The notes under the pieces: model-generated
The model's database searches: none
What the model was told of the DNA's origin: nothing
Seen by the model: the letters and a program-made list of their open reading frames with translations, nothing else
Part shown: positions 10,342 through 28,052 of the stretch, one piece after another
How the letters are laid out: every line of letters begins with the position of its first letter
How positions within the stretch are numbered: position 1 is the stretch's first letter
Program-made: the position numbers and the translations under genes
NCBI GenBank assembly: GCA_015523465.1
Contig: WAKF01000077.1
Location: 1-64,000, forward strand
Origin: Aeropyrum sp.
GTDB lineage: Archaea; Thermoproteota; Thermoprotei_A; Sulfolobales; Acidilobaceae
Direction of reading: 5' to 3'
Length of the DNA stretch: 64,000 nt

Positions 10342-11184
10342 GTGCATTCTATATATGGGGTTAGGGGTAGAGGGCGCGTGCCTGTGGAGTTTATAGCTAT
10401 GCAGGTTGCTATACCCGCTGCAGTCGCACTACTTATTGTGTTGATACTCCTCTCAATGAGCATTAAGGTCGTTAAGGAGTATGAGAGGGCTGTAGTATTC
10501 AGGCTTGGCAGGCTCCTTGGAACTAAGGGCCCTGGGCTCTTCTTCATAATACCCTTTATAGACACGCTAGTGAAGGTAGACCTTAGGATAGTTACTGTTG
10601 ACATACCCGAGCAGCGTACTATAACGAGGGATAACGTTACCGTCGGAGTAGATGCTGTCGTCTACTACAAGGTATTCGACCCCGAGAAGGCTGTGACCAG
10701 GATCGAGAACTACCATTACGCCGTCGTCATGCTAGCTCAGACTACGCTGAGAGACATAATCGGCCAGGTAGACCTAGACGACCTGCTTACTAGGAGGGAC
10801 GAGATTAATAAGAGGCTTCAGGAAATTCTCGATGTGCTCACGGACCCCTGGGGCATTAAGATAACGGCTGTGACCATAAAGGAGGTTAAGCTCCCAGAGT
10901 CTATGCTCAGGGCTATGGCTAAGCAGGCAGAGGCCGAGAGGTGGAGGAGGGCTAGGGTTATCGAGGCCGAGGGTGAGAGGCAGGCTGCTAAGATAATGGC
11001 TGAGGCTGCAAGCTTCTACGAGCAGCACCCCGTAGCTCTGCGCCTCAGGGAGCTTCAGACCCTCATAGAGGTGGCTAAGGAGAAGAACCTTGTGGTAGTG
11101 ACCCCCGTGCAAATGGGCGACGCTAACCTAATGGGTATGATGGTAGGGATGCAGAGAGCAGGAGGGGTCGTTAGAGAGGAGTGA
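10342..11184 (+). CDS. SPFH/band 7 stomatin-like protein
   Basis: KEYERAVVFRLGRLLGTKGPGLFFIIPFIDT...; followed immediately by NfeD. True start may be downstream of 10342. Confidence 0.93.
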   Translation: MHSIYGVRGRGRVPVEFIAMQVAIPAAVALLIVLILLSMSIKVVKEYERAVVFRLGRLLGTKGPGLFFIIPFIDTLVKVDLRIVTVDIPEQRTITRDNVTVGVDAVVYYKVFDPEKAVTRIENYHYAVVMLAQTTLRDIIGQVDLDDLLTRRDEINKRLQEILDVLTDPWGIKITAVTIKEVKLPESMLRAMAKQAEAERWRRARVIEAEGERQAAKIMAEAASFYEQHPVALRLRELQTLIEVAKEKNLVVVTPVQMGDANLMGMMVGMQRAGGVVREE

Positions 11185-11201: not shown

Positions 11202-12653
11202 ATGGGTCTTAAGCGTACAACTCTTTTTCTGCTGGTAATCCTCGTTACAGCGGCTCTATACTCTATGGTATCGGTTGCTCAGGAAGACGCTGAAACCGCC
11301 ACGCAGGCCCAAAGGGAGGAGCCGGGGAAGCTTAATGTTGAGAGACTGATAGCAGAGTGTCGTAACGTAGCTTCCGAGGTTAGATATGGGCTAGTCGAAG
11401 GGGGCGGTTATGATAGGGTTGTAGGTCCTACCGTGATCGTCGTTAGAATTGAGGGTACCATAGGAGTGGCTATGAGAGACTACCTCCTAGACGCTATCAG
11501 ATACGCCGAGGAAAGAAACTCGCCCCTGATAGTAGAGCTTAACACTCCAGGCGGCCTGCTAGACCCCACCTTCGACATGGTCGTTGCTATCTCCGAGGCT
11601 AGGGTCCCGGTGATAGGCTACGTGGTGGATAAGTGGGCTGAGAGCGCTGGGACTATACTGTTGATGTCGACTCACGTAGCTGCTATGGAGCCCGGCACCA
11701 TAATAGGCTCTGTGCAACCCGTCATCTACGACCCGGCTAGCGGCTCCTACAGGCCCCAGCTTGAGCCTAAGATAATAAACCCTATAGTGAAGATGCTCTG
11801 CGAGCACGGAGCTACTCGGGGGAGGAACCCGGAGGCTCTGGTGCGCTTCGTCATATATAATGACAACTACACTGCCAGGGAGGCCCTGGAGAAGGGTGTC
11901 ATAGACCTCATAGCCGAGAGCAGGGAGGACCTTATAGCCCAGCTAAACGGCAAGATAGTGGCACTCCCCTCTGGAGGCAGGGTTAAGCTAGAGTTAAACG
12001 GCAGTATAGAAGAGTATTCTCCAAGCATCAGGATTAGGCTCCTCCACATCATATCAGACCCCATAGTCTCAGGGCTTCTACTAAGCCTCGGAGCCCTAGC
12101 GCTTCTCTTCAGCATCGCAAGCGGCAACTTCCCAGGGATAGCTGTAGGCGGGTTCCTACTCCTACTAGGCCTTCTAGGCTCGGGCTTTAACCCCAACATA
12201 ATAGCCCTCCTCCTACTACTTGGCGGGGCCGTGCTGGTATTCATAGAACTCTACACTCCAGGCTTCGGCCTTGTAGGGGGCACGGGCATCCTAATGCTAG
12301 TCTTGGGCCTAGCCTTAATGCCCATAAGGGGTGAGGGCCTAGCTGTTAGCGAAGAGTATGCAGATACCCTAGTGCTGCTAGTATACGCCATAGGCCTCTC
12401 GATAGGAGGGTTCACGGCCTTCAGCGTATATAAGGTTGTAAAGGCTAGGAGAGCACCGCCCAAGCTCTGGAAGCTCGAGGGCGCCGAGGGAGTGGCCCTA
12501 GACGATATACCGAAAGGAGGAGAAGGCTTCATAATACTCGAGGGAGAGTACTGGAAGGTAGTAGCAGTAGATGACGTAAAGAAAGGCGACAAGGTGGTAG
12601 TAATAGGCAAGGAAGGCCCCCTCCTAAAGGTTAAGAAGAAAGTGGAAGAGTAG
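11202..12653 (+). CDS. nfeD: NfeD-family membrane serine protease (ClpP-class)
   Basis: VELNTPGGLLDPTFDMV, KWAESAGTILLMSTHVAAMEPGTIIGS; C-terminal NfeD OB domain. Confidence 0.93.
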   Translation: MGLKRTTLFLLVILVTAALYSMVSVAQEDAETATQAQREEPGKLNVERLIAECRNVASEVRYGLVEGGGYDRVVGPTVIVVRIEGTIGVAMRDYLLDAIRYAEERNSPLIVELNTPGGLLDPTFDMVVAISEARVPVIGYVVDKWAESAGTILLMSTHVAAMEPGTIIGSVQPVIYDPASGSYRPQLEPKIINPIVKMLCEHGATRGRNPEALVRFVIYNDNYTAREALEKGVIDLIAESREDLIAQLNGKIVALPSGGRVKLELNGSIEEYSPSIRIRLLHIISDPIVSGLLLSLGALALLFSIASGNFPGIAVGGFLLLLGLLGSGFNPNIIALLLLLGGAVLVFIELYTPGFGLVGGTGILMLVLGLALMPIRGEGLAVSEEYADTLVLLVYAIGLSIGGFTAFSVYKVVKARRAPPKLWKLEGAEGVALDDIPKGGEGFIILEGEYWKVVAVDDVKKGDKVVVIGKEGPLLKVKKKVEE

Positions 12654-12721
12654 AAGACTTCTAACACGTTATAAATTCCACCCTACATTTTAATATAATT
12701 TTAGAGCATGAGGGTGTAAAC

Positions 12722-13654
12722 GTGGTGGGTAAAGGGTGTTCTTGTAAAGTAGCGCATCTAGTGCTCGTCGGTACCTCAACCCTAAGGAACTTTGCAGGCG
12801 CGCTCACCCGGTGCTTCGAGAGGGGGGACTGCTCAGCGTTGGGCCTATCCCCTATGGAGGCACGCGAGCTATACGAGGATGCTCGGGTTTGTCTCGAGGC
12901 TGCAGTTAAAGGGGGTGATAGCGAAGCCTGTAAGACTCTCATAACTTCAGGGAATCCTGTGTTCAAGGTGCTAGTAGACTTCATAGCTATCAATCCCCGG
13001 AGAGCGTCTGCAGAGTTAAATTCGATGTACAACGTCCTCGAGCGTGGATGTAGTGGCGTGGAGAAGGTAGTCTTGTACTCTACAGATACCCACGTAGGAG
13101 AGGCTTCAGCTAGGGCTGTGAAAAGCTATATCAAAAGCCGATGTGAGGGCTTAGAGGTAGAGGTGAAAAGGGTTGACGAGCTGGGAGTATCTCCGAGACT
13201 TCTGTGGAAGGGGCTTGCAAGGCTTGCTGTCGAGGTGAAGAGGACTGCGGAGGACCTACAGAGAAGGGGAGTTGCTGTTGCGTTAAACCTTACGGGCGGG
13301 TTCAAGCCCGAAGGGGGCTTCGCCCTCATAACCTCGTTCCCGTGGATCCACGCAGTCTACTACGTTCACGAGTCATTCCGCGAAGTGGTGGTTATTCCAG
13401 CTTTAACGGTCGAGGATGTAAAGCTTATTGTAGAGTCTGGAGCCTTAAGAGGTAATATTATCGATTTAGAAGGGGCTTCAAAGGCTATACCCAAGGCCTC
13501 AACAAGGCTATGCATGATAGCTAACGCAATAAAGAGCGTCGCACCAGAACTTGTAGAAGAGTGTGAATGCAGTTGCCTCACCGAGGATAAAAGGGGTGTA
13601 ATCAGGATTAGCCCTCACTTATCGGGGCTGCTCATAGATGTAGCTTCGGCTTGA
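12722..13654 (+). CDS. CARF-domain protein of the APE2256-like CRISPR-associated family (ring-nuclease/Crn1-like candidate)
   Basis: LVLVGTSTLRNFA, ASAELNSMYNVL, VVLYSTDTHVGEASARAV, VALNLTGGFKPEGGFALI, YYVHESFREVVVIPAL: the recalled motif set of this family. Confidence 0.8.
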   Translation: MVGKGCSCKVAHLVLVGTSTLRNFAGALTRCFERGDCSALGLSPMEARELYEDARVCLEAAVKGGDSEACKTLITSGNPVFKVLVDFIAINPRRASAELNSMYNVLERGCSGVEKVVLYSTDTHVGEASARAVKSYIKSRCEGLEVEVKRVDELGVSPRLLWKGLARLAVEVKRTAEDLQRRGVAVALNLTGGFKPEGGFALITSFPWIHAVYYVHESFREVVVIPALTVEDVKLIVESGALRGNIIDLEGASKAIPKASTRLCMIANAIKSVAPELVEECECSCLTEDKRGVIRISPHLSGLLIDVASA

Positions 13655-23660: not shown

Positions 23661-26600
23661 CTAGCCTTCCCCGCTTCCCATCCTCTTCCTAGCCTCTTCG
23701 ATTAGGTCCTCTGCCTCCTCTATCAACTTCTTAGCCTCCTCCACTAGCTGTTTAGCCCTCTCAACATCACCGGCCTGAAGAGCTCCCTCAGCCTCTCCAA
23801 GCTTCTGCATGGCGTCAGCGAGCTTCTGCATAGCCTCTTCTAGGAGCTTCTGAGCCTCATGGTCACCCTTCCTCCTAGCATCCCTTAGCAGCTCTCTAGC
23901 CTCCTCCATCAGGCTCTCGGCTTTCTCTCTCAGCTCTTCTATAGTCTTCGTCAGCTCGTCTTCAACAGACTCCTCCAGCGCCTTCTCGGCCTCTTCTATG
24001 ATCTTCTCGGCCTCCTCCACCATAGCCTTAGCCTCCTCCAGCTTCTCCTTAGCCTTCTCGTAGTCACCATTCTCCAATGCGTCCTTAGCCTCTTTCAGAG
24101 CCTCCATAGCCTCCTTTAGAAGGTCCATAGCCTCTCTCAGCCGCTCCGCGATGTCGCTTCTCCCCTTCTCCTCGGCCTTCCTTAGTAGTTCTGCGGCCTT
24201 CTCCATCAACTCCCTAGCCTCTTCCATTAGCTCTTCTATAGCCTTCGCAAGATCCTTTACAGCCTCTTCCAGCCTCATTCTAGCCTCCTCTAAGAGCCTC
24301 TCAGCCTGGTCTAGTAGCTCGTCTGCAGCCTCCACTAGCTGTTTAGCCCTCTCAACATCGCCATCTTCTAGGGCGGCTCTCGCCTCTTCCAAGTTATCTT
24401 CAGCCTTGCCAATAAACTCTAGAGCCTTACTGGCTAGCTCTTCCGCGACGCTGTCGCCAGCGTCCCTCGCAGCCTGTAGGACATCTTCGGCTTCCTTCCT
24501 CAGATTCTCAGCCTTCCTCGACAGCTCCTCGATCTCCTTCTTAACATCCTCAACCCTCTCCCTATGCTCTCTTAAAGCCTCCTCAGCCCTCTCTAGCATG
24601 TCATCCGCCTTCGACACCATCTCCTCGGCAGCGCGGATCATACTCCAAGCCCCGTCATAATCCCCATTCTCAGCGGCTTCCAACGCATCCTCCAGCATCC
24701 CCTCGGCCTCATCGAGCATCTCAACAGCCTTCTCCACGAGCCTCAGAGCCTCCTCAGCACCAGCCTTCTCAGCCTCCTCCCTGATCTCCCCGGCCTTCTC
24801 CCTAAGCTCGCTTATCCTCTCCCTAACCTCCCGAACCTTCTCCTCAACCTCCCTAAGCTTCTCCGCCTCGCTTATCTTCTCTCTAGCCTCCTCAACCAGC
24901 TTCTCCGCCCTGTCTAGGAGCTTCTCCGCCTCTTCGAGAAGCTTCTCCGCCCTCCCCCTATCACCTTCATCAAGGGCCTTAAGAGCCTCCTCTACCAAGC
25001 CTTCTACCTCCTCTAGCGTAGACAGAGCCTCTTCAAGTAGGTCTACGGCCTCGCTAGCACCAGCATTCCTAGCCTCATCTAAGAGCCTCTCAGCCTCGAC
25101 CCGCAGCCTCTCAGCTTCACCCTTAATCTCGGCGGCTTTCCTCTTCAGCCTATCCTTCTCCTCCTCCACCGCCTCCTCAAGCAGATACTTGGCTTTAGCT
25201 AGCATCTTCTTAGCCTCAGCCAGCGCCTTCATAGCCTCCTCCAAGCTCTTAGCCGCAGAGTCTAGGTCGCCAGAGTCTAGGTAAGACGAGGCCTCTTCAG
25301 CCAGGCTAATAGCCTCCTCCGCGAGCCTTACAGCCTCCTCCGCAGCATCCACCGCATCGCTAGCTCCAATCTCCTCGGCCTCGGCCTTCACCTCGAGGGC
25401 TTCACTCCTCACTTCCTCAGCTTCCTCCATAACCTCCCTTATAGCCTCTCTCAGAGCCCCAGCCTTCTCCGCCCTCTCTTCTAACATCATCTCAGCTTCC
25501 TCCATCATCTTGGCAGCCTCCTCGACTAGACTCCTCGCCTCCTCGATGTACCCTCTAGCCACGTCTATAGAGCCCTCCTTCACTGCAGCCTCAGCATTAT
25601 CGAGAACCTCCTCAGCCCTATCCAGCAAGCCTAAGGCCTCTTCCACTAGCCTTTTAACATCGCCGTCAACTCCCTCCTCCTCCAGCTCCTTTAACAAGTC
25701 CTTTGCCTCCTCTCTCAGCTCTCTCACGGCCTCCCTTAGCTCCTCTATAGAGTTTAGGACCTCCTCGGCTTTCTCAGCTTTCACACCCTTAACCTCGATC
25801 TGGGCTGCCAGCACGGCCTCCCTTGCCTCGTCTATGAGGCGGAGAGCCTCTACGGCCTTCTCTAGAGCCTGACTCGTGTTACCATTATCAAGGGCTTGCC
25901 TAGCTTCGTCGAGCAACTGGTTAGCCTGGGACAATGCATCCCTAGCCTCCCGTAGGAGTTCCAGAACCCCCTCATCGCCTAGGTCTCTGGCAGCGGCTTC
26001 CAGCTCCTCTACCTCCTTCAATAGCCTCTCTAGAGCGGCCTCTGCAAACGCTATAACAGGCTCAGGGCTTCCAGCCTCCTCTATGAGACTATACACCTCC
26101 TCTCTAGCCTCCTCAACAAGCACCTCAGCCCTCTCAACTAAACCCTTAGCTTCGCCAACCTTACCCTGAGCTAGGACCTCCAGAGCCGTATCCATCATCT
26201 CAACAGCCTTCTCCAGCTTAGCTAGGGCACCCTGAAGCCTCCCCTTGACATCCTGAGGAGCGTCCTCTAACGCTGTGGAGGCTAGATTCGAGAGTTCTAG
26301 GGCGTAGGTCCTGAGGGCTGCAGCCTTCTCTGATACCTCTATAGCCTCCATTGCAGCGCCCATCCTAGCCTCACGATAGGCTTCTAGTGCAAGCTCGTAA
26401 GCGTCTCTAGCAATGCTATAAGCTTCCCTAGCAAGCTCTAAGGCCTCCCCGGGCCTACCCTCCTCGAGGGCCTTCACCGCCTCCTCTAGGATGGACTTAG
26501 CCCTCTCTAATAAGTTCCTAGCCTCCGTTATGGCCTCAGAAGCCTCCCCGCCCTCTATAACTTCCTCAGCCCTCTTTAACGCCTCGAGGGCCTTCTCAAG

Positions 26601-28052
26601 CATCCTTTGAGCGTCTTTCAGCGCCTTCTCAGCCTTCTTAGTAGAATCTTCGTGGACCTCGACCAGGGCTTTAGCAGACTCGATTAGGTCCTCAGCCAGG
26701 TCTAGAGCCTCCTCAGCATCCTCCACTAGATCCTCTGCATCGTCAATCCTCCCCTCTTCAAGGGCTTTACGTGCTTCCCCAAGCAGGTCTAACGCTTTAT
26801 TAACATATTCTCTAGCCCGCCCTAGAATCTCAACCGCCTCCTCAACGTTCATGTCAGAAGCTGTCCTCTCTAATTCACCTATGAGTTCTTGGAGCCTTGA
26901 AGCCTCAGCCTCCAGCCTGTCAATATCGTCCTGGAGATCTCTTTCTTTGCCTTTCGGGCTCAACATTTCATCTACAGCTTCAACGAGGCTTTCAGCAGCC
27001 CTCACAAGCCCCTGGGCACTACCTACAAGCTTTACAGCCTCCGCGTAACGACCTTCCTCCAGGGCTTCTTCAGCTCTAGCTACGAGCTCTTCAGCCTCGT
27101 TTACGTGTTTCTCAGCCCTCTCTAATAGAGTCTCGGCACCCTTACCCTGGGGCGGGTTCTTAACCAGGATCTCCCTCAAGGCTTCTATCCTCGCCTTTAC
27201 ATCGCTTATCCTAGCCTTAACCTCCTCTATAGCCTCCCTTATACTCGGCGGCAGTGCCTCCTCAGCCTTGCCTGCTGAGCCTCCTTTCACTGCGGTCTCA
27301 GCTACCAGGATGCTAGTCTTAGCAGTCTCCAGAACCGAGATTGCTGTCTCAACGCCTATCAAAGCCTCTTCGGCTCCCTCTTCCTTGAGCTTCTCTCTAA
27401 CCTTCCCTAATACCACTATAGCCTTCTCAACGCTCTCTCTAGCCTTTTCGAGGGCTTCTAGGGCATCGCCTTTAACAGCATGTTCGACTGCAGCCTCGGT
27501 GACGACCTCAGCCGCATCCATCCCCGCCTGAGAAGCTAGTAGGGCCTCTACGCGGGCAAGCTCCTCTAAAGCAGTTAGCGGGTCGCCTTCGGCAGCCTTC
27601 TTTAGAGCCTCAGCTATCCCCCTAAGCTCCGGGATTCCTCGAGACTCTGCAATGGCCTCGAGGACCTTGGCAGCCCTCTGTAGAACCTCGCTTGCTAGTC
27701 TAGTCTTCAGTTCCTCTCCCCTAGTGGACTCTGCAAGAACCTCCCGGACCTTGGCGAGCACCTCTTCTCCCCGGGAGGCTAGGTCTCTAGCTTTCTCGGG
27801 CGGAATTGTAGTGGGGTCGGCGCTTAAGATCTCGTCTACAACAGCCCTCTCGTCCTCGCTAAGGGTTTCTAGAACGTGTGGAGCAGTCTCTACAATGCTC
27901 TTAAACACTCTCTGTAGTACTGCCACCTTGAGAGCGTCAATCCCCACGCTTTCAGGCTCAGACTGTGCTAGGCTGTTCGTCACGGGTAAGGCTAGGTTTA
28001 GTATTAGCATAGCCAGCAGGGCTAAGGCCCAGGCGCTCCGCAGACCGCTCAC
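23661..28052 (-). CDS. Secreted giant alpha-helical/coiled-coil repeat protein (1463 aa)
   Basis: Signal peptide-like MSGLRSAWALALLAMLILNLALPVTNSLAQS; E/K/A/L-rich helical repeats with a recurrent '(A)LExGDxxxAxxLxxEAxxLLxxA' motif; no C-terminal TM. Confidence 0.88.
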   Translation of the reverse strand: MSGLRSAWALALLAMLILNLALPVTNSLAQSEPESVGIDALKVAVLQRVFKSIVETAPHVLETLSEDERAVVDEILSADPTTIPPEKARDLASRGEEVLAKVREVLAESTRGEELKTRLASEVLQRAAKVLEAIAESRGIPELRGIAEALKKAAEGDPLTALEELARVEALLASQAGMDAAEVVTEAAVEHAVKGDALEALEKARESVEKAIVVLGKVREKLKEEGAEEALIGVETAISVLETAKTSILVAETAVKGGSAGKAEEALPPSIREAIEEVKARISDVKARIEALREILVKNPPQGKGAETLLERAEKHVNEAEELVARAEEALEEGRYAEAVKLVGSAQGLVRAAESLVEAVDEMLSPKGKERDLQDDIDRLEAEASRLQELIGELERTASDMNVEEAVEILGRAREYVNKALDLLGEARKALEEGRIDDAEDLVEDAEEALDLAEDLIESAKALVEVHEDSTKKAEKALKDAQRMLEKALEALKRAEEVIEGGEASEAITEARNLLERAKSILEEAVKALEEGRPGEALELAREAYSIARDAYELALEAYREARMGAAMEAIEVSEKAAALRTYALELSNLASTALEDAPQDVKGRLQGALAKLEKAVEMMDTALEVLAQGKVGEAKGLVERAEVLVEEAREEVYSLIEEAGSPEPVIAFAEAALERLLKEVEELEAAARDLGDEGVLELLREARDALSQANQLLDEARQALDNGNTSQALEKAVEALRLIDEAREAVLAAQIEVKGVKAEKAEEVLNSIEELREAVRELREEAKDLLKELEEEGVDGDVKRLVEEALGLLDRAEEVLDNAEAAVKEGSIDVARGYIEEARSLVEEAAKMMEEAEMMLEERAEKAGALREAIREVMEEAEEVRSEALEVKAEAEEIGASDAVDAAEEAVRLAEEAISLAEEASSYLDSGDLDSAAKSLEEAMKALAEAKKMLAKAKYLLEEAVEEEKDRLKRKAAEIKGEAERLRVEAERLLDEARNAGASEAVDLLEEALSTLEEVEGLVEEALKALDEGDRGRAEKLLEEAEKLLDRAEKLVEEAREKISEAEKLREVEEKVREVRERISELREKAGEIREEAEKAGAEEALRLVEKAVEMLDEAEGMLEDALEAAENGDYDGAWSMIRAAEEMVSKADDMLERAEEALREHRERVEDVKKEIEELSRKAENLRKEAEDVLQAARDAGDSVAEELASKALEFIGKAEDNLEEARAALEDGDVERAKQLVEAADELLDQAERLLEEARMRLEEAVKDLAKAIEELMEEARELMEKAAELLRKAEEKGRSDIAERLREAMDLLKEAMEALKEAKDALENGDYEKAKEKLEEAKAMVEEAEKIIEEAEKALEESVEDELTKTIEELREKAESLMEEARELLRDARRKGDHEAQKLLEEAMQKLADAMQKLGEAEGALQAGDVERAKQLVEEAKKLIEEAEDLIEEARKRMGSGEG

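Follow-up and report, generated by a model that had tools for sequence, protein, structure and literature searches.

The described systems closest to the gene studied here are the Crn1 proteins Sso1393/Sis0811 (PDB 3QYF, 7PQ2), Sso2081/Sis0455, the CARF-RelE protein Cami1 (PDB 8PHB) and, from another family, the orphan Csx15 of P. fluorescens. Motif I of Sso2081 reads Gly-Thr-Ser, with Ser11 positioning the scissile phosphate, and its motif II reads Gly-Arg-Lys (PMC10018336); the gene for this protein is 81 kb away from a cas cluster (PMC8699464). Orphan Csx15 is a stand-alone CARF-like protein that binds cyclic oligoadenylates and is encoded outside type III loci; it sequesters cyclic tetra-adenylate (cA4) and cleaves it hardly or not at all (PMC13148439). 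Csa3a binds cA4 without ring-nuclease activity, and the ligand of Csa3 in Cas10-less genomes has been stated to be unknown (PMC8699464).

We analyzed a CARF7/APE2256 gene on contig C77 of an Aeropyrum sp. metagenome-assembled genome (MAG) of 1.80 Mb, 96.6% complete and in 92 contigs (G000). The window, that is, the whole stretch of DNA analyzed, comprises 64,000 nucleotides. This kind of enzyme is already known; what is mildly interesting is the absent type III partner. With a probability of roughly 0.55, the gene encodes a stand-alone Crn1 ring nuclease that is an orphan because this partner was lost, varies among strains or was not assembled.

Family assignment and catalytic motifs

The features of the gene referred to below are as follows.

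12722..13654, +: CARF7/APE2256 (Crn1-type ring nuclease) gene; PF09651, TIGR02619, PADLOC CARF7, PDB and Foldseek matches
12770..12778, +: motif I, G17-T18-S19, positioning the scissile phosphate in Crn1; 25-protein alignment, role from PMC10018336
13007..13021, +: SAELN motif, residues 96-100, A97 and E98 invariant; alignment
13295..13312, +: motif II, GGFKPE, residues 192-197; alignment, PDB and Foldseek matches, PMC10018336
13358..13372, +: YYVHE motif, residues 213-217, Y214 and E217 invariant in relatives; alignment
13409..13651, +: C-terminal 80 residues behind the CARF core, poorly conserved; alignment and model

The open reading frame begins with GTG and its 310-aa product matched PF09651 (Cas_APE2256) with 113.2 bits (E=1.1e-32; curated cut-off 24.8), TIGR02619 with 103.5 bits (curated cut-off 37.45) and the PADLOC CARF7 profile at 5.6e-46. 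These matches are far above chance, and the protein is a member of the CARF7/APE2256 family, the only PF09651 gene in its genome. The preliminary description had proposed this family from a set of motifs, all of which are present, and had named the lack of a CARF profile match or the loss of conserved residues as grounds against it; the profiles match and the catalytic motifs are kept. The full-length equivalog NF040951 gave a score of 47, far below its cut-off of 600. Cas_APE2256 was the sole Pfam domain, the HEPN RNase domain of Csm6/Csx1 effectors being absent. Cami1 shares the CARF7-type CARF domain, but the match is limited to that region: the PADLOC CARF_RelE profile covers the CARF part alone (profile positions 5-177 of 294), and the C-terminal RelE effector domain is absent here.

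The nearest solved relatives in a PDB sequence search with phmmer were the Crn1 structures 3qyf and 7pq2 (Sso1393/Sis0811), followed by Cami1. An AlphaFold2 model built from 25 relatives (pLDDT 85, pTM 0.86) had Sso1393/Sis0811 as its top ten Foldseek matches in the PDB (E about 1e-11, prob 1.00). The candidate shares with these proteins the CARF7 fold, the GTS of motif I and the GxKPE lysine motif II, whereas identity in the fold alignment is about 20% and YYVHE replaces YYKYQ. The C-terminal region (residues 240-310), which may or may not form a winged helix-turn-helix (wHTH) as in Sso1393, is partly of low confidence in the model. Sso2081/Sis0455 likewise have the GTS of motif I and the motif-II lysine, but they are longer, match the fold weakly (E about 0.001-0.01) and carry a motif-II arginine that is absent here.

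In the alignment of 25 CARF7 proteins, 12 residues in addition to the start Met were invariant (G17, T18, N23, A97, E98, T191, G193, K195, E197, Y214, E217 and P226), and S19 was nearly so; all 13 are present in the window protein. K195 is the conserved ring-nuclease lysine, corresponding by motif position to K169 in Sis0811 and K106 in Sso2081. R105 of Sso2081, the motif-II arginine essential for cA4 binding, is replaced by F194, as it is by Phe in most relatives; Can2 and Card1, which are other CARF nucleases, likewise have only Lys and no Arg in motif II (PMC10018336).

Nothing points to a dead enzyme, and the Crn1 fold matches together with the kept motif I and motif-II lysine make the ring-nuclease-like nature put forward earlier likely, judging from the sequence. 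The protein would dimerise and bind cA4, whereupon in-line attack by a ribose 2'-OH, with G17-T18-S19 and K195 providing the positioning, would cut cA4 without metal and yield A2>P. Such linearisation would reset type III CRISPR signalling, acting as an off-switch. Could the protein instead have lost catalysis and now bind or soak up cA4, or regulate defence through its C-terminal region? Orphan Csx15, also stand-alone and outside type III loci, sets a precedent for sequestration, and the C-terminus is divergent and of uncertain fold in the model. However, S12 and K169, the two positions altered in the Sis0811 mutant PDB structures, are both kept here as S19 and K195, and we regard either of these roles as very improbable beside an active Crn1 enzyme.

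The protein also contains 12 cysteines, among them C281-C283-C285, several of which have counterparts at comparable positions in G003 and G001; they are possibly disulfides of a hyperthermophile.

Genomic neighbourhood

Upstream of the gene, the following features were recognized.

10342..11184, +: slipin/stomatin (Band_7), conserved neighbour; domain match, synteny
11202..12653, +: NfeD, conserved neighbour; domain match, synteny
12688..12699, +: TATA-like stretch TTTTAATATAAT, ~28 nt ahead of the GTG start; read by eye
12710-12716, +: GAGGGTG, possible SD; read by eye

The TATA-like stretch, as read by eye, suggests that the CARF7 gene has its own promoter. Downstream lie a small unannotated ORF, an SSF-family symporter and hydantoinase A/B, and the neighbours named in the preliminary description, NfeD and an SSS transporter, were correctly recognized. 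The sister species G003 (JALUAM01, an Acidilobaceae MAG) has the same gene order, TatC-slipin-nfeD-CARF7, and the synteny check proposed for relatives accordingly revealed a slot behind slipin-nfeD, 68 bp downstream of nfeD, common to both genomes. This shared position could be taken to tie the function of the protein to slipin and NfeD, in membrane quality control. However, in G001, G002, G004, G005 and G013 the slipin-nfeD pair is not followed by CARF7, and in G001 and G004 the CARF7 gene is located elsewhere. Because the pair stands without CARF7 in these five genomes, only the G000/G003 branch gained or retained CARF7 at this slot; slipin and NfeD are not functional partners of the ring nuclease, and a membrane role is barely credible.

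Between G000 and G003, identity is 45% for CARF7 compared to 92% for slipin and 84% for nfeD. The type I-A cas genes of the two genomes are similarly divergent (27-47%), as expected for defence genes. The GC and GC3 values of the CARF7 gene (0.517/0.527) are at the low end relative to the window mean (0.547/0.615) and not foreign. A mobile-element or viral origin was considered and rejected: phage records and IMG/VR gave no match, and bacterial plasmids gave only weak matches of 25-30% in the CARF part. Elsewhere in the window, at 23661-28052 (-), lies the gene for a protein of 1463 aa whose weak matches (DUF1771, EzrA) are of the coiled-coil type; it has 47% identity to its syntenic G003 relative, compared to 61-96% for most neighbours.

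CRISPR content of the genome and its relatives

A k-mer scan, which covered the fetched stretches of the genome, found no CRISPR array in the window, and contig C77 had no match to the Cas1, Cas7/DevR, RAMP, Cas10, Csx1 and mCpol profiles, which agrees with the lack of cas genes and arrays described for the window. The broader wording "without CRISPR context" holds for the window but not for the genome. Profile searches of G000 located Cas1 on contig C82 and Cas7/Csa2 on contig C44, and the gene order at contig ends adds a Csa3-like protein and Csa5/Cas11a at the end of C46, then Cas7, Cas5, Cas8a, Cas3', Cas3'' and Cas6 in order on C44, and Cas1-Cas2-Cas4 on C82, with Cas2 and Cas4 labelled from position and size. 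Read in this way, a split type I-A system in G000 is plausible. Its regions are broken at contig ends: C44 begins with Cas7, C46 stops after Csa5, and C82 begins with Cas1. The genome encodes three Csa3-like CARF-HTH regulators.

The genome-wide search for type III genes that had been suggested gave no RAMP, Cas10 palm2, Csx1 HEPN or mCpol profile match in G000, and the Cas10 of G003 used as a query had none either. The orphan label thus stands for the window and, as regards type III, for the assembled genome, which is nevertheless not CRISPR-free. As another cyclic-nucleotide source, a CD-NTase was rejected: the SMODS profile had no match in G000 or G004, and in relatives its matches were weak and mostly within frames of about 470 aa, which we take to be CCA-adding enzymes.

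Among 119 related genomes, 43 have a CARF7 match. A type III marker (RAMP or Cas10) was found in 37 of these 43, compared to 29 of the 76 genomes that lack a CARF7 match (Fisher p=3e-7, with no correction for relatedness). Although its co-occurrence with type III is strong, CARF7 is often at a distance: it lies at least about 60 kb from type III genes in the closed genomes G062, G065, G052, G118 and G090, and in G003 it is on a different contig from the type III-A genes Csm3/Cas10 (C65). Since many CARF7 genes are far from type III genes, a position outside the cas locus is ordinary, and ring nucleases are only loosely tied to their own CRISPR loci. Type III missing from a whole genome is less ordinary.

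Intact CARF7 genes without a type III marker occur in G000, G004, G034 and G041. The closed same-genus genome G004 combines an intact CARF7 with a type I-A Cas7, one Csa3 and an array, and profile searches of it gave no RAMP, Cas10 or Csx1 match. G041 is a weak case because this genome is 86% complete, its CARF7 adjoins Cas1 at a contig end, and G018 has an almost identical copy that is linked to type III. In G059 (L135:2297-3125), whose genome has no type III markers, a frameshift followed by stops disrupts CARF7; orphaned copies can therefore decay. In the tree, the orphan copies do not group together: three changes were counted, which is no improvement over shuffling. G012 was discarded as a further orphan: its weak match (E=5e-4) contains a stop, and a tblastn search that used 25 CARF7 proteins as queries did not recover it.

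The mirror image of this distribution was found for Csx1, which occurs without type III markers in six genomes. One of them is the closed same-genus genome G002, with Csx1 HEPN matches at C1:282008-282208 and 743822-743956 and without RAMP, Cas10 or CARF7; here the effector is present, but no source of its signal was detected.

Origin of the orphan state

The off-switch module to which such ring nucleases belong changes place in crenarchaeal genomes and often lies distant from the cas locus. As neither the signal source Cas10 nor the effector Csx1 was found in G000, the gene is an orphan. Probably its type III partner disappeared from the lineage, varies between strains or escaped the 96.6%-complete assembly. 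Loss or strain variation is favoured for three reasons: type III-A is present in the sister G003, the closed G004 is in the same state, and the orphan copy of G059 decays. The intact copies in G000, G004, G034 and G041 could reflect retained function rather than recent loss.

Assembly loss of type III in G000 is possible. If the organism has a type III locus that is absent from the MAG, the gene would act in trans on cA4, presumably as in the sister, where the action on a distant type III locus anticipated in the preliminary description is plausible; in G000 and G004 no such locus was found. The incompleteness of the assembly and its broken CRISPR regions agree with such a gap, as does the unlinked type III-A of G003. 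On the other hand, a type III locus spans several kb and is nonrepetitive, and yet three type III/effector profiles and the sister Cas10 were unmatched. The closed G004 has the same combination, and therefore incomplete assembly cannot explain both cases. We consider a locus hidden by the assembly rather unlikely as the explanation for G000.

A further reading is that the cyclic-oligonucleotide signal served by the enzyme is independent of Cas10; the enzyme could, for instance, degrade the ligand of the type I-A-associated Csa3 transcription factors. The three Csa3-like proteins of G000 and the one of G004 coexist with CARF7 where no Cas10 was found, and the published statement on the Csa3 ligand leaves room for such a signal. 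However, searches for another synthase found no mCpol and, in G000 and G004, no SMODS; Csa3 is present without CARF7 in G002 and G005; and the orphan copies are neither a single clade nor uniformly intact, that of G059 having decayed. These points make the reading clearly unlikely for this gene, and its extension, that Crn1-type nucleases of type I-A-only crenarchaea generally act in a Cas10-independent pathway with Csa3 CARF factors as receptors, appears quite improbable. A Csa3-read signal would be exciting if true; all that speaks for it is the coexistence of ring nuclease and Csa3 without Cas10, together with the ligand statement (PMC8699464).

An orphaned Crn1 enzyme remains our preferred reading. 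With an intact predicted cA4 off-switch enzyme beside Csa3 regulators and no cA4 producer detected, G000 offers a clean case, which a closed same-genus genome backs. It makes testable, in one organism, the question of what Csa3 responds to where Cas10 is lacking.

As a separate observation, a Cas6 gene on contig C61 of G000 (L123:10455-12994), apart from the type I-A operon, lies between two genes for Csa3-like CARF regulators, and this arrangement of Cas6 and its two flanking genes is kept in G003 (L129:9118-11554).
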